Under the pieces are notes generated by a model. That model searched no databases. It was not told the DNA's origin and saw only the letters and a list, made by a program, of their open reading frames with translations. From Sarcocystis neurona (Eukaryota > Apicomplexa > Conoidasida > Eucoccidiorida > Sarcocystidae): DNA of 64,000 bases. Shown here piece after piece: positions 13,993-59,409 of this stretch (the stretch's first letter is position 1; every line of letters begins with the position of its first letter). The translations under genes were made by a program, and so were the position numbers. The stretch lies in the NCBI GenBank assembly GCA_000727475.1, contig KL647304.1, positions 598,272 to 662,271 of the forward strand, written 5' to 3'.

Positions 13993-14165
13993 CTACAGCA
14001 TCATGTCTCGGGAATGTCTTTGTCGCTGCGAAGAAACAAGTCTCGCCCATTGCAGTCTGCGAAGCAAGCGCAGCTGATGGCGCGTCCACTCTTCTGTAAA
14101 TCGAGTTATTCTGCTGCGCGACAAATACAACGGCTTCCCGCGTCGTAGGGACGGGTCTTCTTCCC
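13993..14165 (-). CDS. UBR ligase exon 16 (C-terminus and stop)
   Basis: Acceptor TTGCTTCTTTGCAG (phase 1) gives DAY-G-EEDPSLRRGKPLYLS, the most recognisable C-terminal block of the family (GETDPGLKRGNPLHLS in UBR1). It continues FTEEWTRHQLRLLRRL and stops with TAG at 13993. Reading back through the acceptor gives a false longer frame to 14634. Confidence 0.92.
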
Positions 14166-16517
14166 CTGCAAAGAAGCAACTCACACAATCGCCTCGTCCC
14201 AGCTCTCGTCGGCGTCGTTGACGTATATGGATGTATGTACATTTGTATGTATATATCTGTATAGATAACGTGCGCACAGACGCATACTCTGTCCTGCCGA
14301 CAGTCTGTCTAAACTTCTCGGTTGCGCTCGTTTCTCTCTGTGTATCTTGTATCTCCACATATACATACGTGTACGCATAGATACACAAATACACGCATAT
14401 ACACATACACACATTCAAAAAGTGCTGTGCGAGTTCATAGGTAGAATTCCTACACACACACATAAGGCAGTGTCTACACATACAAGCTGATTCTCTGTAC
14501 AAGTATACATATATATATATATGTGTGTGTACACATCCGTACATTAGTCCGCTTACCTGGCAGTCAAACAAAAGTCTACGTATATGCCGAGAGGACTTCC
14601 TATATGCATGTGTACATAAGCAGTGTATACACATCTATACATGTACGTGCGCTGCTCCGTATCTTCCCTTCATACATATGTATACAACAAAACGCATCCA
14701 TGTTTGTGGACGTCGCATATATATATATATATCCTGCTTTGTATTCTACAAGTATATATTCTCCTCTACGCACAGAAGAACTGCGCATCCGGATGTATGC
14801 GTAGAGTTGCTTACTCTACGTCTGTTCTCACCGCATGTACACGTTCCCATGGGCTGCACCAGGCCCTGCAGTTCCACTGCTGACACTGGCAAATGACCAC
14901 GCCCACGGCGCGCTCCTGCTAACGCTGCTAGGTTGCATGTTACCGTAGGTGCTGCGCGCGCATCTGCTGCTGCTGCTGCCTGCGTACGCGCTGCTGCTGC
15001 CTGCGTACGCGCTGCTCCTGCCTGCGTATGCACTTCTGCTGCGTGAACTGTGCTCCTGCCGCATGTAGCTGTGCTGCTGCTGCCTGCGTGTGTGCTGCTG
15101 CTGCGTGTGGGTTGCTGCTGCTCCTGCTGCTGCAGGCACGGGCTGCGTACCGTAAGCGTCGAGATGAAGACAGCCCCAGCGCGCTTCTCGATCGAGAACC
15201 GAATCGACGGCGACGACGGAGACGGTGGCCAGCGGCAGGTGTAGGTACACCCCCATGCCCATTCCACAGGAAATTGCATGCTGTGTACAGACACCGCGCA
15301 ACACAGCAGTGGCAGGGGCAGCAGCAAACCTCCAGCAGCGGCACCGTGCTCGCTAGCTCTTTCCGCTGCCAAGAAAACGCGGGAGAAGACCAAACGTTCC
15401 TCCGTCACCTCCAGGGGGCAGCAACTACCCCTCTCTCGCTTCTGCCCCCTATTCACAAATATATATTATGACCCCGCCCTCTACACTGCTATACACACGT
15501 GCACGTACGCCTTATGCGTATACACCTCTATATGTATGTATGCAAATGCACATACACATATATGGACGCACACGGGTCTCGTTTACTGCCTTTCTTCCGT
15601 ATAGACACGTATTCCTGCATATATATATATATATATGAGTCTGGCTCTGCTTTCCTTCGTCCCTGTCTGCATATGTATGCATGTGCATTTGCTTTCCTTC
15701 CGTCCTCTCTCTCTATATATGTGTCTGCGTACGCCCCAGTACGCCCACGCATGCGCATTTACTCTCCCTGGGTCTCTCGATAATACGTATATATGTTGGC
15801 AGAAGTTCTCGTGTGGTCAGACGAACTTTTTTACGTAAATGTGTCCGTCTTCTCCTGTGTCTCGTCCGTCCCCAGCACAGCCCTCCCTTTCTGTCTGCAT
15901 GACGGCATTTTTATTGGCCGTCGAGGAGTTGCATCTGCTCCTGTGCTGCTGGCGCGTCTTCTCTGCTGCCCGTTCGACGAAGCAGCGCATCGCTGCTGTT
16001 GTGGCCAACCTGACCGTACACGCATACGTGTGTGCGCTGCTCGCTGTCTCCGTCTCTTCCGCATGGATATACACGTACGTACGGACAACATGCATAAAAA
16101 TGTAGACGCAAAGACTTTCCCACGTATACAGTCGCAGCCGCATATATGTGCCTGCCTCGCAGAGATGTACGTCCATCCTCATATATAGGATACCGTACAT
16201 TCATGTGGAGACAGCCACATCTATACATGCATTGATACTATCACAGGGGCCCCTGTATACATATGTATCCATACACGCACGTATCTATCTATCCACTGTG
16301 TTTATTGTGCTGGACATATGTACACATTCTTCTAGCCCCAAGTACGTAAACGTAGAGCTCCACGCCTGTGCACATATATATACGTACGTGTGGACATACG
16401 CAGATATACAAATATTGATGCATACACGTGTATATGATATATACATCTATTTTTAACTCTGTATTCGTCAATATAGAAGAGCTCCACGCATACATATATA
16501 TATGAAGGCATACACAG

Positions 16518-16548
<31 letters not shown>

Positions 16549-17915
16549 TGTATACATACATATTTGTAACTCTTGATAGCGCTTGTGTGTACAAATATAT
16601 CCATATATATACATATATATATATCTGTATAGACAACATGTATCCACCTGTGTGTGTGTGTGAAGTTCACGATGTATATATATATATATATATGTGGAGA
16701 TAGATGGCAGCAGCGCGGTTGGGACTAACCCGTCGAATATTGAGCATCAACGGAGGGAGACCGCGCGGAGGATTTGTTTTAATGTCGCAGCAGTCGGTAG
16801 CGCAGATGAAGGAGCCGCAGCAGACGCAGACGGCGCAAGTTGCTGCCGAGTGGTATCCCACTAGCGGGGTATATACGCTGCAGCAATAGCAGCAGCAATA
16901 CAACGGCGGCAGCAAGACAAAGCACAGCAGCTGAAGCACCAGTAAGAACAGCAGCAGCAGAAGCAGGATGACGAACAGAGCAGCAAAAGCAGCAAAAGGA
17001 ACAACAGCACGAGCAACAGACGCCCAGCAGCAGCCACAGCAGCAGCACCGAGAAAGCAGCAGAATGCAGACAGCAGCGACAGCAGAAGAGACGCAGCGGC
17101 AGCAGACGCAGCACTCCTCCCCCAGCACACGCGCTTGCAGCCAGTGCCAAAGTAGCGTCTTTTCCTCTGCAGAGGAATCCACGTAATTCACACAGATACG
17201 CCTACCTGGCCACATATCCCACGCACCGTGAACGCTCTCTCTCCCCATACATACAGAAACACGTACTTAATGTATGTACTTGCCACGGCGCCCTACATAT
17301 ATATATATATATATATGCGTACACGTTTGTGCATGTATATATGTTATGTATACCCACACGAATTGTCTCTCTGCTGCAGTCCCGTCCGGAAGACTGACGT
17401 GCAACGAATGTATTTTCGTAAGAAGCAGACACGGGCGGAGTGTACAAACAAGCAGACGCTTCACCACGTACGCATCTGGCCCACTTCACCGAACCCACGC
17501 CCGTAGCCCCTCTCTCCGTAGTATAGAGGCAGCCGTCTCCCCGTCTCCGTAGTATAGAGACGGCCGTCTCCCCGTCTCCATACTGCGCAGGTAGCCGTCT
17601 CCCCGTCTCCACACTACGGACAAACGCTCCTGCGTGCGGGGGAACGTGGAAGAGACTCACGCACGGAGGGCCGGTTGGCCGCGCAGAAAACCGTCCCAGC
17701 TGTCCACAGCAACGCTGTTATATTGACGTACTGCTGCGTACTGCGTTAAGACGATGGCACATCGCTGGGGATGTGCCACTGCAGATATGTATGTCCAGAG
17801 ATATCTCCATATAAGCACTCGCCTCGGCATGTGTGCATACAGACACAAATTCCCACAGATATATGTATACGCATACGTACATATATATATACATATATAC
17901 ATACATACATACATA

Positions 17916-17946
<31 letters not shown>

Positions 17947-20900
17947 GTATACAAGTGGAGAACCTCTGGGGTTGCTGCCGTTGTTGCGCACCCGTATGGC
18001 TGCTTCTGCTGCTGTTGTGAGGAGGCTCTGGCGCCGCAGTGCAGGAATTTACCTGAGCTGCAGGAAGTGGTTGTAGAACTGCTGGTAGAGCTGCGGCAGG
18101 AAGGCCGCGTGGGGCAGAAATTGAGTCACACAAATCGCAGCACTGGCCCGCTGCTGTCTCCAGTCGGCACTATCTTCCTGGGAAGTTGCTGCTGCTTCTT
18201 CGTCTTCGCCTTCTGCCCTGTGGGGGGGATCCTCCGCTGCTGCCGCAGCAGCCTGCTGATCTTGCGTCCAGAAGAGCAGCGAACATCTCATATGTGTACT
18301 GTGGAAGAAACGCGCCGCGTCTGCTGGCAGCAGACGACGTGCGAGCGGCTGCGCATGCAGGAGACGCGACAGCAGTGCTCTCTCCGGTGGAGTGCTCGGG
18401 CCGCAGGAATGGCTGCCCCGCGCGGAACTGTAGTAGCTGCTAGTGCTGTAGCTGCTCCTGCAGCAATACGGCGGAGAGAGCGGCGGAATGTACGGCGGCA
18501 GCGGAGCATCTGCGTCTTGGCGACGAGAAAAGAAAACCCAAGAGGAAGTGGACGACGCGTCTCCTGCCTGTCCTTCTCCTGCTGCTGCTGTCCCGCTGGC
18601 TCCTGTCGCCGCCCCACCACCACCACCTCTGCTGCTGCTGCTGCTCGTTCTCTTCCTCCGTCTGCCGTCGCCGCTGCGGCTCTCCCGCTGTTGCTGCAGC
18701 ACCTGCTCTGCCTGCCGCTGGATCTGCTGCTGCTGCTGCACCTGCTGCTCAAACTGCTGCAACACGACTTCGTACGTGCCTCGCGTGGAGATGATGACGG
18801 GCATCAGCTGCGTGAGGGGAACCGAATATGGCGGCAGCGCCGCCAGGCCGTAGAGGAACTGGACACCGCAGCACGCCGCACACACGCAGTAGGAGCCAAC
18901 GCGGTGAACGCAGCAGCAAGAAGAGCAAAACGTGGAAAACAAGCGACGTATGAAGGCGCATGCGCAAGAGCAGCAGCGGGAAACGCAGGGAGAACAGCAG
19001 CAGCAGAGAGACGTGAAACGCTGGCAGCAGCATTGACAACCGCAGCGCACGCCGCAGCAGCAGCAGCACAGAAGCGTCTAACAGCAGCGGAGAAGAAAAA
19101 GCTTACAGCAGCAACAGAAGCAGCAGCAGCGGCAGCAGAAAGCAGCACGGCAACAGCAGCAGGAGAAAACTCACGGCGCAGCAGCACAGCGCCGATAAAC
19201 TCGCGAACACACACGTGGAAACTTCAACAGCCGCAGCTGTGTAAGGAGACGTCACAGCAGCCGCACCAGCACGCAAAGAGAAATGCGACGGCACCCGTCT
19301 GTGCTTCTGCAAAACGTAGCAGCGGCAACCAGCGCCACGCACGCGCAGCAGCAGCAGAAATAGCGGCAGCCGCAGCAAAAGCAGCTGCAGCAAAAGCAGC
19401 TACAGCTACTAAAACTGCAATGAAGCAGCAGCGTAGCAGAGGGCGAGGGCGCGGCAGCAGCAGCGACGGCAGCAACACAACCACTCCCCCCCCGCTGTAC
19501 AGGCAGCAGCAACACCACAGGCATCCGTGGTCCTCCTCCTCGCCGAGCTTCCGCCAACAGCGACCGCAGTCACTCTCCGCTGCAGCAACAGCCGCAGTCA
19601 CGTGGAAGATGCTGCAGCTGCTCGCAGGACAGCAGCGAAGGCGGAGGCGGCAACAACAGCAGCAGCAGGTGCAACGGCAGCAGCAGCTTGGGAGCAGCAG
19701 CTTGGCAGCACGAACGGCAGAAACCGGCGACGTGTTTGAAAGTTACCTGCGATTCTTTCAAAAGAATTGCAAGAGCCTCTCCTTCTCCCATCCGTCGCCA
19801 CCTTCTCGGCGTGATGCGCAGGGCCGCCGCTACCTGCGTAGCACATAAGACCGGAAGCAGCAGAAACAGCCCCGACTCAACAGCAGAAGAATTTCTCGAC
19901 ATACATCTCTCTCTATTACTTTCCGCCCTTATACGCAGCACGTTGTTCGCATGCGGAGCCACCGGCAAACATACATATCTTCTTCGCACAAGGACGCATG
20001 CAAGTCTGGGATAGCTGTCCCGCAGACACGTCCCCTCTACACCTGCTTCTGCGTCCCTCCCTGTATATATGTATCCGTATACATATATATATATTTATAT
20101 ACATAGGCCTGCCCACTCTCATACAGATGTATTGGTATACATATATATATATACACATATCATCTATATATGTATATATATATATATATATTAGCATGCC
20201 CACTCTCATACACATGTATTCGTGTGTATGTATGTATAACAGCCTGATCACCGCCATATACATGTACTCGCATATATGTATGTATTAGCCTGCCCACCGT
20301 CATAAACGTGTGTATTTCTCTCTTTACTATCTCACTGTCCGCCGTCATACGCATTGGGGAATTCGTCTCTACGTTTATATTTGCATGCAGCCGCCTCGCT
20401 GTACGAACGAGCCCTGACTTTTTTTCTTCTATCTTCCTCAAAGGCCAGAGGTGGGGCTGCGCGCGCCGTACCTGCTCTTCCCACTTGTCGGCGCGGAGCT
20501 GAAGACGTGTACTTTCCTCTGCTACGGTCTGCTGTGTTGCTGCTGCTGCTGTTGGTCCACTGCTGCTGCTGGTCTTCTGCCGCAGCAGCTGCCCGCCACG
20601 CGGCTGTTGCTGGTCTTCTTCACATTCCGTCTGTCCGCTGCTGCTACTGCTGCTGCCATCTGTTGCTGCTTCCATTTCTGCTTCCACTCCAGCAGGAGCA
20701 GCAGCACCGTCTGGCTGCTGCAGCAGCAGCCGCACGTCTTCTCCCTCTTCCGCTCCCCGTTCTTCTTCGTCTTCCTCTTCTTGTTCTTCGAAAAGGAAGG
20801 CCTCGATAGACGACGGTAGGGGCAGCTTCTCGAGCAGCATCGCGCATTCTTCCGCAGGGTCGTAGAGCCGGATGGAGGGGAGGAGAAGGCTGCCCTTCTT

Positions 20901-23900
20901 CACGGTGCTTTGCTGCTGCAGCAGTGACTCTTCCTTCGTCATCCGTCCCCTCCTTCCTGCTGCTGCAGCTGCGGTAGGGAAGCCGGGGAACCAGCTGCTG
21001 CGGCTGCTGTCCCGCGCAGAGGCACCGGAGGACCCTGCTGCGGCGGCGGCTCCTGCTGCTGCCGTTCCTCCCCTCTTCCCTGCATCAATAGCAGCAGCAG
21101 ACCCTCCTTCTCCCACCCCACCACCTCCCATTGCTGCTGCAGCTGCTGCTGCTGCCCGCGGCCCCCGACAAGAGGCCCCAGCAGCAACAAAGGACGGCGT
21201 GCGCACCGTAGGCGCCTCCGCCGGATCTGCCGCCCCAAGCAGCTGGTACGTCTCGCAGATGTCTTCGAAGGGCAGCTCGCTGCAGCAGAAGAAAAAACAG
21301 CACCGCCCCACTCCACATAAACGCACCCGCATATATGGAGCATTTCAGTAAGGGGGTCGTGGAGCATTTCAGTAAGGGGGTCGTGGAGCATTTCAGTAAG
21401 GGGGTCGTGGAGCATATCTTTCTACTTGTCCACAGAAAATAGGAGAGATACATGCTCCGCATGCGGTGTTTGCATGCAGCACCACCACTTGCGCAGAAAA
21501 CGCCTGACCTTCTCCTCGCCTACCCACCGGTGGCTGCCGGGGGGGTGGCTGCTCGGCCCCCCCCCTTCTTGGGTCCGCCCTGCATGAGACTTCTGCCTTC
21601 CGGTGGAAGCTGCCATACGCGGCTTCTTCTACTGCTGGGGAATGTACAGCAAAGTGCCGTCTCAGGAGGACCTCCTCCTCTCCCCTACTTCTGGGGAGGG
21701 GACTTCCACAGCGAATGTCGTCTCTATATACGTTGAGTTTGTTCTTCTTCACCGTCACTCAAGAAGACATCTTCCTTTCTTCGATTTCTTCTCCTTTGTC
21801 AATCTGTACGCGTAATAAGACTCGTCTGATAAAGACGGGAAGTTCGCTCGTCCTCAACAGCTGCCGTCCTCCCGTCTCATAGAAACTCGGCTTCTCCTGC
21901 TTCCCTACGACTTCTTTCTCTACGGATGACGAAGAGCAGACGCGTCGACAGCAGGAGAGCTCCTCACCCGAGGAGTCTCCCAACATTTTATATTCGAAAA
22001 GTGTTGTTCGCATGCCTTCATCTCATACATGTCGAACGCATGCGCGCGCGCGCCCGAGCCACCTCAGCAGCTGTCCTCCTCTCACACACATGCATGAAGA
22101 CGCATACATCCATACATCCATCCATCCATACATATATATATATATATATATACGCAGGCACATGCCTCTATAGCGTATACCGACCACCTTTACACACCTA
22201 TATATATATGTATGTACACGTGGGGGAGATGAGAGAAAAGGGCACATACGGAGACGCAGACACTTCTACGACGCCCGTGAACGCATATATAAAAGCAGGT
22301 CTACATATATATACACATAAGCATGTATAGGTGTAAATCTACATATATACACATAGGCGTTGTAGACAGACATACGACGCCCCTGAACGTGTAGATGATA
22401 GTAGAAATCTATCTATCCATCTATATATCCCCTACATATATAGAGAGAGGCGTTTCTGCAGAGAGATACACGACACCGCTGCACCGCAAGGCATCGATAG
22501 GTGTAGATATATATACAGCTACACACAGAGTGGCGCACAACGACGTTCATGCCTATAAAGAAGGGCCCTTGCAGCAGTTAACGCATGCGGCCAGATGCTC
22601 CACACACGAATATCGGCTGCTGGGACGTATACGCAGAAGTTCCTGCCAGATACTGGGAGAAACAGACACACCATCACAGTCCACCTGCCAGTCAAACAGC
22701 GCAGCAATCTACTCGCCGAGCTACACATCTATGCATATGTGTATATATACATACTTGATTTACCTATATATATACATGGAGACGTTGTCAATATCCTTCT
22801 CTGTATATACATTTATCTACCTCGCAACCTCTTTCTCTTTATCGATATGTATGACAAGACACACACATACACACACATATATATATATGCATACTACACA
22901 TGCATATACACATATATATATACATATGTATGTGCGTGTATGTCTACGTATATGGTTTTATAGAGCAAATATATGGCAGCAGAGAGGGGGTCCTCTGTTT
23001 TCGTTGTTCGTGTGGACTGCACTGCTGTTGTTTGCTGGTGCTGCTAACCTCTGCGAAGCCCTGCCTGCCAGTGCTGTTGTCGCTGCTACTTGACTACCAG
23101 CTGCTGCTGCTTCTGCTTCTGCTGGGGGCAGGCAGTGAGGAGCGACTTACGTGGCAGGGCAGAGGAGGTGTTGCAGCAGGTGGAGCTTTCGCAGCCAAGG
23201 GACGAGTCCCATCTCCACCAGCTGCACTATTACGCGTCTTCGATCTTCTTCACTGCTCCAGCCCGTTGGGCTGCTGCTGCTGTTGCTGTCGCAGCTGCTG
23301 CTGTTGCTGTTGCAGCCGCTGCTGTTCGACGCGGACTGCTGCGCACGGGTGGCCCGCTGCTGCTGTTGCTGCTGCTGCGTCCCTCCTGCAGCAGCGCCGC
23401 CTGCAACCAACTCGCTGGGACGCGTGCCCCCGCCGCCCCACACGTCTGCTGCTTCTGGCTCACCGGCTCCTGCTGCTATTTCTGTTGCTGCGACGGGCTC
23501 GAGGAAAGAGAACGGCGGGGTAACTGCGTCGATAGACGACGGCGGCAGGCCTGCCAGCAACGTCTCATTCCACCCGTCGGTGCTGCCCACGCCGCTGATG
23601 CTGCTGCAGTTGCTTTTCGACGGCGCCTGCTGCTGCTGCTGGAGTCGCTGCTCCTGCGTCGCACCTACGTGCTGCAGGTAGCCGCGCAGCAGCGCCGTCC
23701 GCTGCTGCTGTCTGCTCATGGCGCTCTCCTTCTCAGCACCAGCGCCGCGGCCCTCCTCCTCTGCCTCCTCCTCCTTCTGCAGCAGCTGCTGCTGCGATCT
23801 TCTGCGACTCCTGCTGCTGCTCCTGCCTCCGCTGCTGGTGCTGCTGCTGCTTTCTCTAATGCATCGCACGGCTGCCCCAAGTTGCGCCGCACACGGCGGG

Positions 23901-50900: not shown

Positions 50901-53900
50901 CGTGCCAGCAAGCTCTTGATACTCAAGACCTGGACCGTCACCCGCTCCAGGGCGCTGTCGCTCTTCAGCACCAAGCTGAAAACAACAAATACGCACATGC
51001 ACACACAGAGAAAAAACCGCATGCAGCGAACACAAACACACACACAGACACAGGTGGAGGCGCGCGCACGAGTCCCGATGGAAAAGGGCATGCAGAAACT
51101 TCGTCAAGGGACAACAAAACCCATCGACGTTTGTGTCGCGATACACACACACGCGTTCATACGTGCGTGCCTCCTCGCCACGCACAGCACCCGAGCAGGA
51201 GACAGAATCAACATACGTCTGCGCATGTATGTACTATATATACATAGTATACATATATATATCCATATATACTGATACATATAGAATACGCACATATACA
51301 TATATATATGTATATTCTGATGCAGACAGGGGGAGAGAAAGTAGGCGGAGGAGTGCAAAGACGTGCACCTACGCGTTCACGCAGGGAGACTCGCATGATC
51401 GTGTAGAGACGCAGGGCAACGTAAGGCGGGCCGCGCGTTCTGAAGAAGGAAGACGCAGATAACGATGTGATAATTGCAGAGAGCTACAGAGAGTCAAAGA
51501 AACACACACACGGCTTCACAAAGCTGAACAGACGAAGAGACACACAGACACAAATGCAGCAGCAGCATGCAGTCGCCGTGGGCTTCCCGTTTCGAGGCGC
51601 TGCTGTCTTCCCTCGAAACGTCCCCTCCGTACTGAAAGAGACACGCAAGAGCGCAGCGAGTCTTCCACAGGCACTCGAGCCGTCGTCTCGTCTCCGTGTG
51701 CAGCCCACCTACGGAGACATCTGCTGCGCGCGTGTGTCTCGCCGGGGAGACGCCACGCCGTGGAGCCTCGTCCCATACCACCAGTCGCACACACATGCCG
51801 ACCCATACACGTACGCACCCTTGCAGAGAACGTACTACGTCCGCGCAGTACGTACACACATGGAGGACATACATATATGTATATACATATATGTATACAC
51901 GCAGAACATATGGGTGGGTACACACCGTTGAGGAGGAGGTCTCCCGACCGCGTAGAGACACACACACAGATCTTTTGCAGACGCGTGCGAATGCCCGGCG
52001 TTGTGTACGTATATGTGGAGGATCACCACGTCTTCTGTGTACAGACCACCTACGCAGAGGTTCATCCGTATGCAGTAGACAACAGTGTGCTACTTGGCGT
52101 AGGAGTTCTGTGTGCCTACAAGACGTGTGTGCTCACGTTTCTCAGTGTGTACGTCCATGTAGAGGTCGTCTACCTTTTTTTCTCAGGAGATGGAAGGGTC
52201 TTGCCGTGGCTCATTTCTCTACACATATAATACGTAAGAGAGGATACCGACTTGCCTCATTTGTGATCTATGGACGTACATCTGTGGAGGGACACAGACA
52301 AGGATCGCAGCCATATCCAGGACTTGCTGCGCATGCGTGTGTGTGTCTCAGAGAAGGAGAGAGACACGACAAACTGAAGGGAGAAACGACCGGTCACGAC
52401 TTGCAGGCCCGCCTCAGGCGTGGTAATATGACCAGCTGGGATACCACGAAAATCGCGAGTATATTCACCCACCTGTATACGCCGAATCTCTACACATACA
52501 TATACACATGTGGATGGTCACACACACATATATATATACATACATACATACGTAGCGACCTGTATATGTATGCGCCTATGTATTCATATATATATATATA
52601 TATGTGTAGATATCCATATACACATGCACGTACAATATGGAGAGATACGCGGATACGCGTCGACACAGAGAGACAATATCAGAGAAACACCCGTATACGG
52701 ATGTGAGCAGCAGATAAATAAGTAGCCCGGGGTGTCGACAACTGCAGCAGCACTCCTCCCGTCCGTATACCTCGCCCTCTCCGTCTCTCTTCCTTAGAGG
52801 AGACACAGCGAGGGGGCTGCTGTGATCGGCAGCCACACGTGTATGTGCGTACGCCTCCCTGAAGACCGACGCATCACCGCCGCTCTTCTATCCTGTCTGC
52901 GTGTGTGTGTGTGCGACGACCTACTCTTCGTATTGCTCGATAAAAATGAAGGCAAACTGCTCTTTAAATCCTTCTTCGAACATGAGGGAAAGCCAGAGAG
53001 TCGTGAGCGCGCCATGCAGACGCGTGCCTTCGAGAGGTGATACTTCGGCTTCGTCGGTTCCGTCCGCGGCTGCTGGCGCGCCTGGTGGCAGACTGCCGCG
53101 CAGCACTGCCGCTGCTGCAATGCGCCCTTGGCTGGTGCTTCTGCTGTCTCGTCTCCGGCCGCGTCGGCGTCCCCGGCGGGGCTGTTGGTCCTCCTCCATC
53201 GCAGCGACAGGATCAAACTCGTCTCGCAGATGCGTCCCGCCGTCGCTGCTGTAGCTGTCTGAGTCCAAGAACGCGCTGTCGACGCTGTTGTTGCTGCTGA
53301 GCTGCTCTTCTTCTTCCTCGGCCGCTTCTTCCAGGTCCAGCAGGAGCCCCACAAATCCTTCAGACCCGCCGGGCTGCTGTCGTCCGGTGCCCTCGCCGCG
53401 TCTCCGCTGGCGTCTCTGCTGTCTCGCCAGTCGTGCGTCGCTCGCCAGCTTCAGCAGCACTGACGCCAAACTCACACTGCCTCTCCTGCTGCTGCCAGGA
53501 GATGCCCGCTGCTGCGGCTCGGACGTTCCCGGCCCACCTCCCATCCCCTGCTCCTCCTGCTGCTGCTCGCCAGGTAGCTGCTTCTCAAGCGACGCTTTCC
53601 TGCTCAGTCCACGTTCCTGCTCTTCTCTCTCTGTCTGTTCCTCATCCTCCCGCTTCTTTTTCTTCTGGACGCTCGCGCCGAATCGCTGCTGCTGTTCCTG
53701 CTGCACCGCCGGCCCTCTCCTTCTCCTCCCATACTCTCCAAATTCTTCTGCCAGCCGTTCCAGCTCCTCTTCTTCTCTTCCTTCACCTCGTCGTCCTCCT
53801 CCTCCTCGCTGCTGCCGCTGCTCCTGCTGCTGGTGCTGCAGCACCGCTTCACCGAGCGCAACAGCAGCAGCAGCCCCAGGCCCCCACCTTGGGGTCGCAA

Positions 53901-56900
53901 TGGCTGCTGCAGCTCTCCTCCGTTCAAGAGCACCTGCAGAGTTGTCCAGCCGGAAGTCGAGCGTTCGATAGATTTCTCTTCTTCCTCCCCCTGCTCCAAA
54001 CCCGCCTTCACTGTCGTCTTCTGCGCTCGCTGCTTCTCTTCCTCTGCGGCGCTGCTGCCCAGACGTGCTGCGCAGCGACACGTGCTGCTGCTGCCGCCCG
54101 TAGCGACGACGTCTTGGCATGCCGAAGAAGAAAGTCGCCTCGTCGCGTAAAACCTGCCGCTGTCTTTCTTCTTCTTCCTCAAGAGCGAACAGCAGCCGCA
54201 GTCTCCAGTTTTGCTCTCGCCAGCGCTGCAGCAGCCACTGGTCATGCGACGGCCTCCCCCGTTGTCCGTACGGCAATCTTTGCTGCCGTTGTTGTCTTTG
54301 CTGCCGTTGCTGTCTCTGCTGCTGGCGCTGTCGCTGCTGTTGCTGCTGTCTTTGCTGTTCCCGCCATCGAACCCCACAGGCTGGCTTGCTCAGCGCGTAC
54401 TCAAGAGCGTCGTCAAAAGCAGCTTCCTTTGCTGCGTCGTTCCTGCTGCGGCCCCGGCCGCGGCCTCTCTCTTTGCTGTTGCCGCTGCTAAGACCGAGAG
54501 GCAACTTCTGCTGCAGTCTTTCCTCGATCTGCTGCAGCTCACATACGATCGCACGTCGAAATTCTTCGCGCTGCTGTTCCTCCAGCTGCTGCAGCGACGT
54601 TTCGCTCTCCTGCCGCGGCGCCTCTGTCTTTCCTCGCTCCTCTCGTTGCTGCTGATCGACACGCTGCTGCACGAGAAGCTCCTCGGCGCCGTAGTCCGGT
54701 GCTGCGAGTGCTGCTGCTGCCAGCTCCTCAGTCTCTTGCGGGGAACGTCCCTCCACTTCTGCTGCTCGGGCTGCTGCCGCCGCTGCTGCTGCAGCGTCCA
54801 CCAGCACCACCGCGTCAGCTGGGAGCTCTCTACGACGCAATGTATGCAGCAGATGAACCAGCCGCAGCAGAGGCTGGTGGTCAAGCCGCAGCAAGTCGTA
54901 CCGCCCCCAGTAGCTCTCTGGTGCAGGGAGCCACCCTCCCGCCCGTCTCAACGTTGCGAAGATTTCTTCCTTGTGTCGCTGCTGCAGTTCGTCTGCTGTT
55001 TCTTCATCCATTCTTTCTTCCTTCTCATCCTCCTCCTCCTCCTCTTCCTCGTCCTCCTCCTGTTCGGTCTGCTTCTGAACTTCGTCGCTGTCCCCCTCCT
55101 CTTCGTCTTGAGCTTCTGCTCCAAACGCTGTCTCGCCGCTGGCGCCTGCAGCTGCAGCGCCCCGTCCGGACGCAGCAGCGCGGCGGGACGGAAAAAACGA
55201 GGACGACGTGCGCGCGCCCCACCCCGCAGAAGAAGCAGCAGCAGTCAACCCAGCGCGTGCGACAGACCCGGAGGTTGGCGAGGCAGCACTCGGTCGTCCT
55301 CGAGGTGGAGGGCCTCGGCTCTTGCGCTGCGCATCTGCTGCAGGTGTCGTCCGAGGCGGCGTCTCCGGCAGTGTGGGGTCGAGCGGATCTGGTGCTGGGG
55401 TGGGCTCTCCGCCGAGCAGCGGTTCGAGAATGACCCTGCCGACGCATCGTCGAAAGCCCTCGTGAAGTTCAGAAAGGTCGACGAGCTGCTCGGTGAGGAG
55501 ACGGGCCTTCTTCCATTGTCTGGCAAGCGCGTGGGTCACGAGGCGGCGCGCGAGACAGCGCAGCAAGACCAGCAACACGAACTTGGTGTGCGGCGGCAAG
55601 GCATCTCCCGAGTCTGCAGCCGCCGCAGCAGCAGGTCCCGGGTGATGTCTGCAGAAGCCGCTCGCTGCCCACGCGCTCGGGTCCCCGCAGTCGCAGCAGC
55701 CCCCACACTGCGACCTATAGATAAAGTAGCTGTGTCCATAATGATTACCTTCTTGAAAGCAGAAGACGCAGATGCAGCTGCTCTGCGACCCTCCGCATGT
55801 CAAGCATCGGTAGGCGACGTGCTCCCCGTCCCACACCTGTCCGCAGCGGCTGCGAGCCAGCGGAAGCGCAGGAATGTTCGCGACGAACGCCGCTGCTGCT
55901 GCAGAGAGACGACTCGCCAGCACCGACGCGTTGGCCGCGGGAAACCCATCCGCTCCCGTCCCTCCCGGAGAGGCTGCTTCTGCTGCTGCTGCTGCTCTTC
56001 CCACCACCTCTGCTGGGCCTGCTGCAGTCCCCAGCAGCCCTGCAGTTGAAGAGGTCCTTCCTGGACGACGAAGGGCAGCGGACGAGACAGCAGGACCTGC
56101 TGCTGCTTTCCCCAGTACCTCAGTTGCAGTGCGACGCGTGTGTGAACCGCCAGAGCCTGCTGCTTCTGCTGCGGCAAGCCCTGCTGCTGCTGTCCATTCG
56201 CCCTCTGCGACGCCTGCTGCACCGCCTACTGGGACGCTTCCTGCTGCTTCTGTGTCCGCATCTCCTGCTGCTGCGTCCCGTTGGGCCCCAGAAGAAGAAG
56301 AAGCAACAGACGACAAAAACGCAGCGCCCGCCAGTGTCGCGCCCGCATCGCTTCCTTCCCCCGTTGCTGCTTCTGGGGCGGCGGCTGCTAGTTCTGCTGC
56401 TGCTGTTTGTCGTCCTGCTGCCGTTTCTTCCGGTGTTGTTTGTATTCCTGCTGCTGCTTCTCGTGGTGGAGAGGAGAGCGTGGGGCAGGGCGATACAGAC
56501 TCACGGGTCGGAGTCGTAGTTGGTGTGTCTCGCCCACCGGCGGAGACACCGGATTGCTGCTGCTGCGGAACAGCCCGTCCTCCAACACTCTCGGGCGCCG
56601 TCTCCACGGCAGACGGGCGAGGAGCAGGGGCGCTGCTGCTGCTTCTCTGCGTCGACGCAGATCCAAGTAAGTCCTTCTCCAGGTCGGCTACGGGAGCGAG
56701 ACAGAGGACGAGACGGCGCATGGCCTCGGCGTTGCCTAGGGCGTCGAAGGCAGCAGCGAAGAGCTGCAGCAGCAGGTCTGGGTCCGCCAGCTGATCCACA
56801 AGGACCCCACACGTCAGCAGCAGCGTTTCGACTGACGAGACGCGCAGCGCCTCCGCCAGCAACCGAGACACATGCGAGACATTGTAGGAATACTGCGCTG

Positions 56901-59409
56901 CGGCTTGTGCAAGTGTAGGCAAGGAGACGCGACGAACATGCGGAATCAGCGTACATATGTTGCCAGGCAGCCCGTCTCCACCCGCCCTCGCTGCTGTTCC
57001 CCGTCCTGCTGCTCGAGCTGCGCCTGAGGACGGCGTCTCATGCCAGCTTCCACCGCCGCCAACTGCGCTTGCAGTGGGACTTCTCCACGAGGCAGCACCG
57101 GGCCACCCCCCCTCGACCTGCTGCTGCCCCTCCCGCGGGGAGTAGTCATGCTGCTGCTGCTCTTGTTCGAGAACGGCAGAGTCGTCCACGCGAGCAGCGC
57201 AGAGTCGCAGGACGTGCAGCACGCGCGCCTTCCCCAGCAGCACAAAGTCAAGATCTTTAGCGGCGTGCGTCGAGCTAGCACCCGCGTTGCCTCCCGCGGA
57301 ACCCCCGCCTTCAGCACCAGGCAGCAACTCCTCTCTGCATGCGCCAAGAGCAGCAGCAGCGCTGAAGATGGGAGCAGCAGTGGGAGAGCTGCTGTCTCTG
57401 CGATAGCCCCCAAGCGACAACATCGACCAGTCTCGCTGCGGCTGCTCCTGCTGCTGCTCCTGCTGCAGGGGCAGTAGAGGGAGAGTGGCAGTGGCAGCAG
57501 CAGCAGCCAGTGGGGTGGCACTGCTTCGAACAGCAGCAGGAGCGCCTACAGCAGCAGCACTGGCCGACAGCGGAAGATTCGCAGGAAGCGCCGGAAACAC
57601 AGAAGACAGCAGCAAATTTTCGCTGCTTCTGCTGCTGGTGCTCGTGTTGCCGAGAGGCAAGTGTGGAGCTGAGAAAGTAACACGCCAGCGGATGGACGCT
57701 GGTGGAGAAACAGCAGCAGGAGGACCAAAAAGACCCGAGACCGAAGAGGAAACTCGCGGGTGCTGCTGCTGCTCCTGCCGCATGCGGTGGTGGCTACCTG
57801 GTGCAGCCAGCGCAGGAGTGCCGGCAGACGACAACGACCGAGACGCAGCAGCAGCAGCAGCGAGAGCATTCGTGCAAGGAGGAAGAGATGGAGGAGGGGC
57901 AGCAGCGGGAGAGACAGCAAGAGCAAAGGCAGCACTGGGAAAAGCGTCTTGTCCAAGTGCGCCGCGTGAGAGAGGGCTGTGTTGCACTGCTGCCTGCTGT
58001 GGGGCCGGAGCAGCAGCGGACGGGGAGGCGCTCGCCGGAGACACATGGGTGCCGGAACTGCTGGTGCTGTAGAGTGGCACAGCAAAGGAAGCTGCTGCAG
58101 ACGGGCTTGCGGGGATGCCGTGGTCAGCAGGAGTTGCCAGAGAAGCAGCAAAGACTGCAGCGGCCGTTGCAGGAGACAGAAGTGGGATCGCAGCAGCCGT
58201 CTCCGGGGAGAGCAGCGGCACCCCTGTGTCAGCTGCAGTAGACACTCGAGCAGCGGAAGCCAGTAGAGCCGCTCCTGCTCCCCCTGCTGCTCCTCCGGTT
58301 GCTTCTTCGGCTGCTCCTCCGGCTGCTCTCTCTGCTGGAATTCCCTCCACCTGTGCAGCTCCCTCTGCAGCAGCCGAAACAGGCGGACGCAGGAACACGT
58401 CGCTGCCGAAGCCCTCGGTGTGCTGCTGCTGCTGCTGCACCGCGGCGGGAGACGGCGCCGTGCTCAACAGACGGAAGCGCATGCGTCTCGTCTCCAAGGT
58501 GCGGAAGGTTGTTGCCGCTTCCTCTTCGCACGAGGTCACTGCGTCAACAGCAGCAGAACCGAATCCATGAGCAGCTTCTGGAGTAGCAAAGATCTCGCTT
58601 CCTGCAGCAAGTAGAGGCCCGGCCCCACACCCTCCCGCGCTGTCTGCTGCGGCTGCAGCAAAGGCAGAAGTAGCAGCGGCAGCAGCGTGAGCTGGACCCG
58701 CAGCACCCGCGCCAGAAGACGAAACAGACACAGAAGCAGGCGAGTCGAAAAACGAAGCGCCGCCCTCCGCCGCTGCCACATCGAATCCTTCTCCTGCTTC
58801 CGCGCAGCAGAACTCGTCGGGACGTCCTGCTGCTACTCCGGGCTCAGAAAGTCCATCTGTCTCTGCTGGTGCTCGCCGAGGTGCCGCTGCGCGTTCCTCC
58901 GCTTCTTCCCATTCAGCCCCCGCGTCGTCCACAGTCTCCATACTACGTGCTGCGCTTCTGAGAGCCTCTTCTTCCACCTCGGCGCAGTGCTGCTGCTCCT
59001 GCTGTCGCTGCTGCAGTGACCCTCGCGCCCCCTGCTGAAGCTGCTGCTGCAGCGGTGGCTGCTGCTGCTGTTGCTCCGGAAGGAGAGGAGGACGTTGTTG
59101 CTGGTGCTGCTGCTGGGGAAATGCCTGCTGCACGTCGGCTTCCTCGCAACTGTTCACGGGTTGCTGTTGCTGCAGCGCCTGCTGCTCTGGCGTTTGCGGT
59201 TGCGGCATCTGCTGCACAACCTCTCTTTCTTCGTACGTCTGCGGCTCCGGACGATTCTGCCGCTCTTGGTGTGCCTCCTGTTGCGGCTGCTGCGCTTCAA
59301 CGGACGCCTGCTGCTGCCGTGGCTGCGCCATTTGCATGGGTGTGTCTGTCTCCTGGACGGAGTTTTCCTGTGCACCGGGGCAATTAAAAGGGGGAAATCT
59401 TTGTGCCAT
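13993..59409 (-). CDS. giant UBR-type (N-recognin) E3 ubiquitin ligase, 16 exons, about 9,000 residues
   Basis: UBR1/UBR2/PRT6 ligases bind destabilising N-termini through a UBR box and pass ubiquitin from an E2 through a RING-H2 finger. All landmarks occur here in family order: UBR box (55642-55845), FKEQF/EQY helical segment (exon 1 end), DVRYLI (exon 2), MTQNMN...EHV (exon 3), HVPLNRLLA and MWTRNG (exon 4), AQCYRRTFYQ (exon 5), KPSEW (exon 7), RRRQEQVLASYRKKQ then CVSC, CGHRMHVGC and CPYC (exon 10), GLVPWL (exon 11), CVCCGSFIC (exon 14), HAISCGMG (exon 15) and DPSLRRGKPLYLS (exon 16). Exons: 52925-59409, 50048-50975, 48105-49316, 46998-47385, about 45181-46078, 44906-45047, 40805-43988, 36861-39795, 33748-34482, 25298-33074, 23151-23967, 20472-21279, 18053-18807, 16730-16877, 15151-15280, 13993-14165. 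All junctions but 5/6 have GT-AG ends in matching phase. Exons 2 and 8 each seem to lack one base. The ClpS-like type-2 domain is not recognisable. The organism's own transcript could differ in detail. Confidence 0.85.
14166..15150 (-). other. UBR ligase intron 15
   Basis: A 985-bp phase-1 intron. Next to the donor it holds CAG-type repeats and a 21-bp tandem repeat; the rest is TA/TATG microsatellite. Confidence 0.8.
14980..15042. repeat. 21-bp tandem repeat, three copies
   Basis: Units starting CTGCGTACGCGCTGC at 14980, 15001 and 15022, each ending in a CTG run. The unit is a multiple of three, so it creates a repeated Ala-Tyr-Ala-Gly-Ser frame on the minus strand, but it lies inside an intron. 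Confidence 0.85.
15151..15280 (-). CDS. UBR ligase exon 15
   Basis: A 130-bp exon after acceptor GTCTGTACACAG, phase 0. HAISCGMGMGVYLHLP matches UBR1 HALHCGAGVCIFLKI, and ARWGCLHLDAYG matches the GC...PYLD-x-YG block. The donor G|GTACGC is at 15150, phase 1. Confidence 0.9.
16516..16551. repeat. (TA)n microsatellite
   Basis: A TA run of about 14 units in intron 14, flanked by further TATG and TACA tracts. Similar runs occur at 17290, 17920, 20165, 22132, 33455 and 36295. Confidence 0.85.
16730..16877 (-). CDS. UBR ligase exon 14: first half of the C-terminal Cys/His cap
   Basis: A 148-bp exon. Acceptor CTGCAG (phase 2) gives QL-S-VYTPLVGYHSAATCAV, then CVCCGSFICATDCC, the counterpart of UBR1 CLFCGAILCSQNICC. 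It ends LNIRR with donor CGG|GTTAGT at 16729, phase 0. Confidence 0.88.
16878..18052 (-). other. UBR ligase intron 13
   Basis: A 1,175-bp phase-2 intron. Its 3' end is CTG-rich on the coding strand for about 250 bases up to CTGCAG. It also holds a 31-bp tandem repeat and TA microsatellites near 17290-17316 and 17880-17946. Confidence 0.8.
17514..17617. repeat. 31-bp tandem repeat, 3.3 copies
   Basis: Units begin CTCC at 17514, 17545, 17576 and 17607 and end with the shared block CCGTCTCCCCGT. The middle of the unit varies between copies. It lies inside intron 13. Confidence 0.85.
18053..18807 (-). CDS. UBR ligase exon 13
   Basis: Acceptor GGTTCCCCTCACGCAG (phase 0) opens LMPVIISTRGTYEVVLQQFE. 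A Gln/Arg/Ala/Ser-rich body follows, and the exon ends FLPHAAFLPQLYQQFYNHFL, the counterpart of the LP-[DE]-Y-x-x-L segment before the C-terminal Cys/His cap. The donor is CAG|GTAAAT at 18052, phase 2. An alternative acceptor about 75 bases upstream is also phase 0. Confidence 0.8.
20472..21279 (-). CDS. UBR ligase exon 12
   Basis: Acceptor TTCTTCTGCTGCAG (phase 2) gives LCPA-T-ELPFEDICETYQLL. An Ala/Gly-rich region follows, then RLYDPAEECAMLLEKLPLPS, which resembles UBR1 HLCSYLSLPNNLICLF, then an acidic run. It ends DKWEEQ with donor CAG|GTACGG at 20471, phase 0; 808 bases fit. Confidence 0.8.
21337..21415. repeat. 24-bp minisatellite, 3.3 copies
   Basis: Unit GGAGCATTTCAGTAAGGG plus GGTCGT, with identical copies at 21337, 21361 and 21385 and a partial copy at 21409. 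It lies in intron 11, 58-136 bases upstream of the exon 12 acceptor in transcript order. Confidence 0.95.
23151..23967 (-). CDS. UBR ligase exon 11
   Basis: Acceptor ACGTCAG at 23968 or TTCCGCAG at 23953, both phase 1 and compatible with exon 10. It begins GTGVWLEDLQLLGRRLPYPP, passes through Gln/Ser repeat and ends RRRVIVQLVEMGLVPWLRKL, the counterpart of UBR1 LWRSVRAGIMPFLKCSALFF. The donor is AC|GTAAGT at 23150, phase 2. Confidence 0.8.
25298..33074 (-). CDS. UBR ligase exon 10: RING-H2 finger and following helical region
   Basis: A single 7,777-bp exon (2,592 codons plus one base). It opens in phase 0 with AVRRRQEQVLASYRKKQDNF, the counterpart of the charged UBR1 helix before the RING, then CVSC. 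After a long insertion come CGHRMHVGC and CPYC, completing RING-H2. Later ordered islands are FVVHPLAVLSKLVSDGLEHA, FDFYVFDVELLCLFNCPVLP, VDLIASLALLHPSTRFHMLV and LSEVLAVLWQWWDRDPFF, in the order of the UBR1 region after the RING. The rest is Ala, Gln, Ser and Glu repeat, with runs of Ser over ten long. The open frame continues past the exon into TA-rich DNA to 24585; the better end is donor AAA|GTGAGG at 25297, phase 1. Confidence 0.85.
31896..32951 (-). other. RING-H2 finger with large internal insertion
   Basis: Ligands in order: Cys-x2-Cys (32940-32951), Cys-x-His-x2-His-x2-Cys (from 31994), Cys-x2-Cys (31896-31907). All eight are present in the C3H2C3 pattern. The gap between the second and third ligands is 316 codons, mostly Ser, Ala and Gly repeat, where human UBR1 has about 70. 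Confidence 0.85.
33748..34482 (-). CDS. UBR ligase exon 9
   Basis: 245 codons, phase 0 at both ends. It starts VLYAMRCCRAFESHWQQLDW, then a long Ala-rich stretch and a Gln/Ser/Pro-rich stretch, and ends GGRDEEWKE before donor GAG|GTGAGG at 33747. It belongs to the linker before the RING. The assignment rests on matched phases with exons 8 and 10 and on the order of landmarks. Confidence 0.75.
35284..36137. other. assembly gap (854 N)
   Basis: Undetermined bases only. Both flanks carry the same repeat (TATATAGAGAGAGAT...ATATATGTTGC), so the true content is probably a longer tandem array and its real length is unknown. Confidence 0.98.
36728..36823. repeat. 48-bp tandem repeat, two copies
   Basis: The unit begins CAGATCTTCTGCAGCAGCAG and contains CGGATCTTCCG. 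Copies start at 36728 and 36776 and differ by one base (T/C in the TTTTT stretch). It lies just inside intron 8, close to the exon 8 donor. Confidence 0.9.
36861..39795 (-). CDS. UBR ligase exon 8 (one apparent frame break)
   Basis: The acceptor TTCTTGTGTGTGGCGCAG (phase 1) joins exon 7 as SQSGQV-L-YDQRRQSEWSRV. That frame runs to about 39650; the rest, about 930 residues, is in a second frame rich in Ala, Ser, Arg and Glu, with ordered islands at SFADLFRPLQPFF, ARLEMPYQIEAVLQQLLQRA and ECFAWRRLLQCIQQRPYAPA. The phases need 2,936 bases and 2,935 are present. A run of seven C at 39649-39655 lies where the frames cross. The exon ends RFSMLQ with donor CAG|GTAACA at 36860, phase 0. Confidence 0.75.
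40805..43988 (-). CDS. UBR ligase exon 7
   Basis: It begins after CTGCTGCAG in phase 0, joining as VLKQ-ISTYKAAEGMSPGQF, then VIKPSEWRLYDPYFPYFSW, the counterpart of UBR1 YELKPECAKEFNLYFYHFSR. PPMYRSAFFAFAMSPVVRSV starts the next helical block. There follow about 850 residues of Arg/Glu/Ala/Gln-rich sequence, with VDVLSLSRWMGSSLTESLLR and HVFVDFSG as ordered islands. LLELVGGTAFLHAAEA near the end resembles the UBR1 block before the linker. The donor T|GTGAGT is at 40804, phase 1; 3,184 bases fit. Confidence 0.85.
44906..45047 (-). CDS. UBR ligase exon 6
   Basis: It follows a strong acceptor, TTCAATAGTCTCTTCTGCAG, in phase 2. It encodes EEAVMGYLLRHHLMRGPQTH and a second helix ending LVDRVLKQ, the counterpart of UBR1 IKREIIHQLSIKPMAHSELV and VIEAVAHF. 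The donor is CAG|GTACGT at 44905, phase 0. The 142 bases fit both phases. Confidence 0.85.
45181..46078 (-). CDS. UBR ligase exon 5 (3' border unresolved)
   Basis: The acceptor CTGTGGACAG|G (phase 2) joins exon 4 as WTRN-G-ISVFSEAQCYRRTFYQ, matching UBR1 GFSLVNQIYYYHNVKCRREMF. It continues VFLLQ-type helices (PPVIFLLQLLARSELPYNL) and then Gln/Glu/Gly-rich sequence. The frame stays open to 45007, past the strong exon 6 acceptor, and I see no good phase-2 donor in it. The left coordinate given is arbitrary within about 45100-45350. A second frame (acidic, DEEDWGEEEPGASDCEGDS) overlaps the end and may be the true one after an unseen shift. Confidence 0.6.
46079..46997 (-). other. UBR ligase intron 4, with degenerate triplet array
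   Basis: A phase-2 intron of 919 bp. From about 46690 to 46990, next to the donor, the plus strand is an imperfect array of GCT, ATT, GTT and ACT triplets (T at nearly every third base). TATG/CATG microsatellites occupy 46150-46440. Confidence 0.75.
46998..47385 (-). CDS. UBR ligase exon 4
   Basis: Acceptor TGCTGCTGTTGCAG (phase 1) gives GSVRH-W-YPKGREQDC. It contains FHVPLNRLLAQVLAALP, the counterpart of UBR1 IHLPLSRLLAGLHVLL, and ends MLEHHLRTLVFYHQVTTCMM then WTRNG, the counterpart of HPLRCLVLCAQVHAGMWRRNG. A short Ala/Pro-rich stretch separates the two. The donor is AATGG|GTAAGC at 46997, phase 2. Length and phases agree. Confidence 0.9.
47386..48104 (-). other. UBR ligase intron 3
   Basis: A 719-bp phase-1 intron. 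Its 3' part is CTG-rich on the coding strand up to the acceptor and includes an 80-bp tandem repeat. Open frames on both strands here come from the triplet repeats. Confidence 0.8.
47401..47583. repeat. 80-bp tandem repeat rich in CAG, about 2.3 copies
   Basis: Units begin with CAAAGGTGGAACA at 47401, 47481 and 47561. The first two copies differ at very few bases. The unit length is not a multiple of three, which suits an intron. The array ends about 15 bases from the exon 4 acceptor in transcript order. Confidence 0.9.
48105..49316 (-). CDS. UBR ligase exon 3
   Basis: The acceptor CTGTCTCGCAG (phase 1) joins exon 2 as LLVQ-Y-LSVSPRTVAAFWDIG. It then reads FLPLFCMTQNMNRHRRRVRE and HVQYEDEESWTHALCL, matching UBR1 around FLKILTCMQGM and the following helix. 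The rest is a charged Arg/Glu/Gln region of about 300 residues. The exon ends at GSVRH with donor T|GTAAGA at 48104, phase 1. Confidence 0.85.
49317..50047 (-). other. UBR ligase intron 2, with palindrome repeats
   Basis: A 731-bp phase-1 intron. It carries at least five copies of a GGTGTACGTACACC-type palindrome, described as a separate repeat feature. Confidence 0.8.
49383..49978. repeat. dispersed palindrome family, core GTGTACGTACAC
   Basis: Copies at 49383-49396, 49434-49454, 49532-49545, 49633-49644 and a perfect 18-bp one, GGGGTGTACGTACACCCC, at 49961-49978. The middle copies are 95-100 bp apart and share flanking bases (TCGGG before, CTCGA after), so this is a decayed tandem array. 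Related copies sit at 33303-33314 and near 59858. Confidence 0.8.
50048..50975 (-). CDS. UBR ligase exon 2 (one apparent frame break)
   Basis: It starts in the frame LVLKSDSALERVTVQVLSIK, the family's SVQ helix region, and ends in another frame with NSLNDVRYLIAEKDLLVQ, the counterpart of UBR1 DLKYILISKP. Acceptor and donor phases (2 in, 1 out) need 929 coding bases; 928 are present. Runs of seven C on the plus strand at 50327-50333 and 50582-50588 are likely places for a missing base. A small unrecognised intron is the alternative. The donor CAAT|GTAAGC is at 50047. Confidence 0.7.
50976..52924 (-). other. UBR ligase intron 1
   Basis: Donor GTAGGT at 52924, acceptor TTTGTTGTTTTCAG ending at 50976; both are phase 2 and join as QYE-D-LVLKSDS. 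The 1.95-kb intron holds TA/TATG microsatellites (51235-51315, 52520-52620) and no repeat-coded exon that I can support. Confidence 0.8.
52925..59409 (-). CDS. UBR ligase exon 1: long repeat-rich N-terminus, UBR box, start of helical scaffold
   Basis: It encodes 2,161 residues plus two bases. Residues 1 to about 1188 are Gln-, Ala- and Ser-rich with a few ordered islands, the clearest near 810-910 (TLAQAAAQYSYNVSHVSRLL onward). The UBR box is at 1189-1256. After it come KFVLLVLLRCLARRLVTHAL and a scaffold interrupted by acidic and Gln tracts. The exon ends in a conserved helix (LTTLWLSLMFEEGFKEQFAF, then IEQYE). The donor is GA|GTAGGT at 52924, phase 2. The ATG at 59409 is the first in frame after a stop at 59602-59604. 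The 64 codons between are open, and an acceptor-like CTGCAG|AGG at 59565 is in phase 0, so a further 5' exon is possible. Confidence 0.85.
55642..55845 (-). other. UBR box (zf-UBR) zinc domain
   Basis: Sixty-eight residues from CGQVWDGEHVAYRC through CFQEGNHYGHSYF and CCDCGDPSAW to FCRHH. The zinc-binding Cys/His spacing of the N-recognin fold is kept and is closest, from memory, to plant PRT6. In the segment usually written C-x2-C-x2-D-P-T-C the Asp is missing and the loop is one residue longer (CLTCGGSQSSC). The second acidic patch, CDCGD, is present. Confidence 0.93.

Follow-up and report, generated by a model that had tools for sequence, protein, structure and literature searches.

Among the described UBR-type ubiquitin ligases, PRT6, UBR1 and UBR2 share a UBR box, a winged helix, a RING with an insert and a UBLC-type C-terminus (PMC11668491). 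The type-1 selectivity of UBR1 is set by D118, T120 and D153, while T120, F148 and D150 hold the amino group of the N-degron (PMC8346999), and the UBR box of UBR2 binds N-terminal Arg peptides at ~2 μM (PMC10687169). A contact between U2BR and UBC2 is known in UBR1 and expected in PRT6 (PMC11668491). Animal UBR3 combines a UBR box, a CxxC lying far from the CxHxxHxxC of its RING, and a C-terminal domain (PMC4873228); its RING halves are ~87 residues apart and it is described in four reports as not binding known N-end-rule substrates (PMC4568919, PMC4873228, PMC11668491, PMC12513836). A survey of 2008 charts zf-UBR among E3 domains (PMC2408969). Here we analyse a stretch of 64,000 nucleotides from Sarcocystis neurona (the window; contig C17, 598272-662271, in a genome searched over 123 Mb and 74 contigs), whose minus strand encodes the features of the UBR1/PRT6/UBR3 group, namely a UBR box, a winged helix after the box, a RING-H2 with a long insert and a PRT6_C/UBLC domain. 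The open-access matches listed include no study of the function of this gene in coccidia.

Extent and structure of the gene

A first-pass annotation of the window had proposed a single 45-kb gene at 13993..59409, and these coordinates proved correct, with an in-frame ATG at 59409 and a stop at 13993 on the minus strand. Tblastn searches with the orthologues from Besnoitia (5,342 aa) and Neospora (5,461 aa), close relatives that are not fully independent of each other, gave 30 and 25 matches to the window, all of them (30/30 and 25/25) on the minus strand and collinear, covering it from 56,943 to 14,002 in unbroken order; the comparison with other coccidia that the annotation had called for returned orthologues that are collinear in their conserved blocks. 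Since one orthologous protein spans all the minus-strand open frames, their reading as separate repeat-rich hypothetical genes was rejected. The UBR box and PRT6_C occur in one chain in all six near-full-length alveolate proteins (Besnoitia, Neospora, two from Amoebophrya and two from Cryptosporidium), and in four of the six the winged helix is in that same chain too. Collinear orthologue matches, the spliced alignment and joined domain matches all bear out the single giant gene, which is confirmed as far as sequence can show: that 59409-13993 (minus strand) is one gene of about 17 exons is highly probable, and its predicted product is a RING-type UBR ubiquitin ligase of ~9,100 residues.

A spliced protein-to-DNA alignment was written for the locus and run with the Besnoitia and Neospora proteins as separate guides. 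The preferred model, a hand-made consensus of both runs, has 17 exons, 16 introns and 27,385 nt of coding sequence for 9,126 residues, in which an X marks each of two frame changes, and agrees well with the ~27.5 kb and ~9,000 residues estimated beforehand. Thirteen introns are identical between the runs, which disagree at 50.8-50.2 kb, at the end of exon 10 and start of exon 11, and at the end of exon 12, giving alternative exon edges near 25.0/25.25, 23.95 and 20.3/20.5 kb. Exon 1 (52925..59409; all exons are on the minus strand) measures 6,485 nt when counted from the first ATG, but in-frame ATGs after 59409 run to 57,423 and the start could be that late; 662 residues would be lost if translation began at the last in-frame ATG that precedes the first conserved block. 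Exon 2 (50816..50975) has a firm acceptor and exon 3 (50048..50363) a firm donor. Between them one run placed a 68-nt intron and the other a third frame step; the intron of the model (donor 50815, acceptor 50363) was chosen by hand among several for the best splice signals, although a codon-scored comparison put other short introns above it. Exon 4 (48105..49316) was obtained in both guide alignments, and the spliced alignment likewise gave exons 5 (46998..47385), 6 (44906..46078), 7 (40805..43988) and 8 (36861..39795). Exon 9 (33748..34482) joins exon 10 (25247..33074) inside the helix before the RING; exon 10 is open for ~2,609 codons, and one run ends it at 25010. Exon 11 (23151..23967) starts at 23946 in one run, and exon 12 (20472..21279) ends at 20328 in one run. 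They are followed in the spliced alignment by exons 13 (19747..19833), 14 (18053..18858), 15 (16730..16877), 16 (15151..15280) and 17 with the stop codon (13993..14165), exons 11-17 keeping a single frame down to the stop codon at 13993.

Both runs require a frame step in exon 6 (~45.2 kb) and in exon 8 (39.7 and 39.5 kb), and no convincing intron was found for the net frame changes at ~45.2 kb and within 39.8-38.9 kb. At ~50.6, 45.2 and 39.5 kb, scoring of frame steps, GC-AG introns and short introns led to no firmly preferred path; the low-complexity stretches there look coding in several frames. An assembly length error or a short intron is a plausible source of frame changes in such DNA; at 45.2 kb and 39.8-38.9 kb these two and a real shift were not distinguishable. 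The three blocks between the frame changes contain no in-frame stop before the end, as against 291 stops in the two other frames (37 and 54, 25 and 18, and 80 and 77 per block). The GT-AG ends of all introns in the model (16/16) arise by construction, the aligner having been told to use GT-AG; they are therefore no evidence, and splicing was tested separately. With flat splice scores and one dinucleotide pair admitted at a time, GT-AG ranked first of 33 pairs with a score of 8420, followed by GT-CT (8319), the lowest pair reaching 8087, and the controls with antisense DNA and reversed protein scored 2556 and 3286.

A run of 854 N (35284-36137) lies inside the intron 36860-34483 (2,378 nt); AT-rich tandem repeats adjoin it, and the coding sequence of the model is untouched. 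A duplicated exon across this gap, considered when Besnoitia residues ~2,840-2,887 matched twice, was rejected, the two matches being the two sides of one intron (SMLQ / VLYAM). Elsewhere in the window, the long open frames 60403-62186 (minus) and 17815-19848 (plus, opposite exons 13 and 14) had no Pfam match at E 0.01, and neither a tRNA scan of the window nor Rfam at the gathering threshold returned a hit.

Domains, orthologues and length of the predicted product

The UBR box (zf-UBR; 55642..55845, minus strand, as for all domains) was recognised by Pfam (E 2.1e-16) and by the PDB entries 7wuk (E 5.4e-19) and 6lhn, a PRT6 (E 1.1e-18), and it shows the Cys/His pattern of such boxes. A UBR1-like winged helix (43836..45019) is cut by the intron 44905-43989, and its E-value improves from 2.2e-6 for a single exon to 6.6e-14 after exon joining. 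The RING-H2 (31896..32951) has the pattern C-x2-C, C-x-H-x2-H-x2-C, C-x2-C, with a CVSC at ~32,951-32,940 and the CxHxxHxxC and CxxC at ~31,994-31,896, so that its halves are some 315 residues apart; all eight Cys/His are present and are retained in Besnoitia and Neospora. It is weak in Pfam (E 0.081), hhalign gives 97.8% to six UBR RING segments (6/10 proteins, selected for having the motif), and a PDB search with the region matched no RING. The C-terminal, UBLC-type PRT6_C domain (14086..18102) extends over exons 14-17, where the last third of the profile matches, and its E-value falls from 1.4e-5 for a single exon to 7.1e-18 for the joined exons. Joining exons 9 and 10 restores the helix that precedes the RING (DEEWKE / AVRRRQEQVL; Besnoitia GEEWKEAVRRRQEQVL), and by analogy it would occupy the position of the E2-binding U2BR. 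The UBR1/PRT6 landmarks that the first-pass annotation had listed in order are thus recovered on the minus strand as zf-UBR, winged helix, RING-H2 pattern and PRT6_C, and the HMM check it suggested was positive for zf-UBR and for joined PRT6_C, with the RING weak in Pfam in a single-ORF scan. The ClpS-like N-domain that UBR1 and UBR2 have was not found in nine scanned open frames or among the precomputed domains of full-length orthologues; remote forms may escape, and the scan is able to find such a domain, as it did in protein P0012. NCBIfam returned no family for any of three proteins (0 for 3/3).

Orthologues were sought with separate regions of the product. Of 709 candidates compared with the UBR-box region, four matched at an E-value of 1e-5 or below: Besnoitia BESB_065900 (5,342 aa), its Neospora counterpart (5,461 aa) and, from Amoebophrya, two proteins of 3,988 and 4,045 aa. 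All four carry zf-UBR, winged helix and PRT6_C in one chain. In a shorter length range 9 of 2,076 candidates matched at 1e-10, among them a Cystoisospora protein of 1,643 aa with the UBR box only, on a 22.9-kb contig. The same nine include two Cryptosporidium proteins (2,939 and 2,874 aa), which have zf-UBR and PRT6_C without a winged-helix match. The RING region matched 2 of 323 at 1e-4, a Toxoplasma gondii ARI record labelled 'partial' (P0014, 2,175 aa) and a second Cystoisospora model (P0015, 3,354 aa), which are without a UBR box and were left out of the pocket comparison. The two Cystoisospora suis models (P0005 and P0015, annotated as N-recognin, on contigs of 22.9 and 51.7 kb) match the first and last parts of the gene, and the orthologue of this species is probably more than 5,000 residues long and split, with its middle missing from the models. 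The split annotation that had been forecast is therefore seen in relatives, in the two Cystoisospora models on two contigs and in the partial T. gondii ARI record. Conserved blocks are 37-77% identical to Besnoitia, and the UBR box is 93-94% identical to those of Besnoitia and Neospora. These two orthologues share with the predicted product the collinear blocks, zf-UBR, winged helix, RING motif, PRT6_C and Ser118; they differ in being ~3,700 residues shorter and in having fewer homopolymer runs. The Neospora protein already bears the name 'Large protein with a UBR1-like ring finger related treble clef'. In T. gondii, TGGT1_295658, a 'zinc finger in N-recognin protein' / UBR box E3 ligase, has a phosphosite at S3335, which shows that it is produced and is no shorter than 3,335 residues (PMC11321763); it is possibly the T. 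gondii counterpart of the window gene, or else the other paralogue, the T. gondii record compared here being the partial P0014.

Only 1,723 of the 9,126 residues fall in blastp blocks common with Besnoitia. The 7,403 residues outside them, about four fifths of the product, consist to 66.7% of Ala, Ser, Gln, Glu, Gly and Arg, as against 41.7% within the blocks. Runs of at least four identical residues number 177 (861 residues, 9.4% of the product); such residues make up 2.5% of the orthologue in Besnoitia, 1.6% in Neospora, 3.3% in Amoebophrya A120 and 0.1-0.3% in Cryptosporidium, and the two Cystoisospora models, with 7.7% and 6.7%, approach the value found here. Twelve 10-kb stretches from elsewhere in the genome, some of them containing N, served for comparison; six had an open frame of at least 300 aa, and run residues there amounted to 0-6.0%, as against 5.9-10.7% in six 8-kb pieces of the window (16-64 kb). 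Most of the sequence sampled is thus poorer in runs than this gene, yet the gene is not alone in this, as seen in a second UBR locus and in one sampled stretch (L013). Lengths form a series from Cryptosporidium (2.9k residues) through Amoebophrya (4.0k) and Besnoitia and Neospora (5.3-5.5k) to ~9.1k here; the length is exceptional, being the longest of the family seen in these searches, but it is the end of that series. The statement that the product would be five times longer than known members holds against UBR1 (1,749-1,950 residues against ~9,126) and fails against the coccidian orthologues, which are at most 1.7 times shorter. Animal UBR3, at 2,219 aa in Drosophila against ~9,100 predicted here, differs likewise.

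The UBR-box pocket and a second UBR locus

Pocket positions were numbered as in UBR1, with offsets from PDB alignments to the UBR1 chains 3ny1 and 9wbw. The box of the window gene has Ser118, Ser120, Cys148, Asp150 and Asp153, so that of the canonical type-1 set Asp118/Thr120/Asp153 only the last is kept, and the PRT6 box in the PDB has Cys at 148 too. The Asp118 of Arabidopsis PRT6 and of yeast and mammalian UBR1 and UBR2 is replaced throughout the clade: position 118 is Ser (8) or Thr (1) in 9/9 boxes, those of the window gene, Besnoitia, Neospora, Cystoisospora, two Cryptosporidium, two Amoebophrya and one eukprot protein. Among eight other boxes it is Asp in seven, including that of a second UBR locus on contig C24, and Asn in Closterium (P0009). 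Given this change across the clade, recognition of N-terminal Arg in the manner of UBR1 and PRT6 is improbable for this box, which would probably respond to a different signal instead; some type-1 binding may remain, given that Asp150 and Asp153, through which the amino group and side chain of Arg are bound, are retained. A search of the whole genome for the arginyl-transferase domains ATE_N and ATE_C, whose presence bears on the existence of an Arg/N-degron pathway, gave no match, which is not proof of absence, since exon-split domains can escape, as the PRT6_C of the window gene itself did in a search of this type. The function of N-recognin that the first-pass annotation had assigned is not supported: with Asp118 changed to Ser and neither a ClpS-like domain nor an arginyl-transferase domain found in these searches, the label appears doubtful.

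The human UBR3 box in our UBR-box tree is a presumed sequence, with C-G-x-S at the Asp118 position, the same as the window box. In the tree, which carries a long-branch joining warning, this presumed UBR3 box groups with the clade of the window gene (84/76; with Closterium 96/95). The nine boxes of the clade lie on one side of a branch with support of 88/92, below the level that the tool stars. Pairwise identity gives no separation, the presumed UBR3 box being 51% identical to the window box, 51% to P0011 and 47% to PRT6. The window box is in turn 51-53% identical to two PRT6-type PDB boxes, and its best PDB matches are 7wuk and PRT6, with no UBR3 chain among the 21 listed. The UBR3 link, with a presumed sequence and moderate tree support, is thus a lead; together with the pocket change it makes 'UBR3-like' preferable to 'classical N-recognin', short of proof.

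The only other UBR box of the genome lies on contig C24 at ~1,733.2-1,730.0 kb, in two exons that join with canonical spacing, and it keeps both Asp118 and Thr120. On the same strand a CxHxxHxxC motif occurs near 1,707 kb and PRT6_C at 1,692 kb, so that C24:1733167-1691883 (L002 and L019-L025) appears as a long, repeat-rich locus with UBR box and PRT6_C, likely a second giant UBR gene that extends over 41 kb or more; a search there at E 1 gave no winged-helix match. Its box is most alike PRT6 (52-55% identity) and stands outside the group of the presumed UBR3 box and the window clade in the tree; a topology that places it among the alveolates was not rejected (p-AU 0.202), and its place beside PRT6 is therefore not proven. 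Both loci are long and repeat-rich and have a UBR box and PRT6_C, but C24 alone keeps Asp118/Thr120, and it would be the better candidate for a classical Arg/N-recognin.

Competing explanations and meaning for the family

The best explanation overall, with a probability of roughly 0.8, is one giant gene whose product would be a RING ligase of UBR3-like kind, its pocket shifted, while a paralogue resembling PRT6 exists beside it. The chances that its mechanism would be UBR3-like are about even. The conserved islands would fold into one UBR1-like body in which the repeat-rich inserts are disordered loops, the RING and the preceding helix would use an E2 of the Rad6/UBC2 kind, and substrates held at the UBR box would be ubiquitinated. 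With Ser at the Asp118 equivalent the box would act like that of animal UBR3 and leave N-terminal Arg unread, and the classical Arg/N-recognin role would fall to the C24 locus rather than to the window gene. Only tentatively do we extend this to an ancient alveolate UBR3-class ligase that no longer reads Arg and has in this parasite swollen to ~9,100 residues, beside a PRT6-like giant that kept the Arg pocket, so that two giant UBR ligases would divide the signals between them.

One giant gene might also encode a classical PRT6-type Arg/N-recognin in which the change at Asp118 is tolerated and Asp150 and Asp153 suffice. Both of these are kept, 7wuk and PRT6 chains are the best PDB matches of the box, PRT6_C is present, and the N-domain of PRT6 is disrupted too (PMC11668491); against this reading, which is possible though rather doubtful, Ser or Thr occupies position 118 in every box of the clade whereas C24 keeps Asp118 and Thr120, and no ATE_N/ATE_C was found in the genome, with exon-split domains missable. 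That two or more genes make a UBR-box protein and a RING/PRT6_C protein separately is very unlikely: the Cystoisospora and T. gondii records are separate or partial, internal frame changes exist and the one-gene model rests on sequence, but the Cystoisospora split falls on two contigs, one just 22.9 kb long, UBR box and PRT6_C share one protein in 6/6 near-full-length alveolate records, and an intron divides the winged helix, whose match is restored by exon joining. Scarcely credible is a decaying or pseudogene copy, which the two frame changes (three in one run) might suggest: the DNA at these places is of low complexity and could plausibly contain short introns or have been assembled at the wrong length, the three blocks are free of in-frame stops, and identity to the orthologues is 37-77% in the blocks (Besnoitia) and 93-94% in the UBR box (Besnoitia and Neospora).

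The giant UBR3-like gene that we prefer suggests that a member of this family tolerates several thousand repeat-rich insert residues while retaining its conserved islands, among them a RING with halves ~315 residues apart. The pocket change common to the alveolate orthologues makes it testable what a UBR3-like box binds, and whether coccidia keep two UBR ligases for two signals. The records from Cystoisospora and T. gondii illustrate how easily genes of this sort end up as split or partial models.
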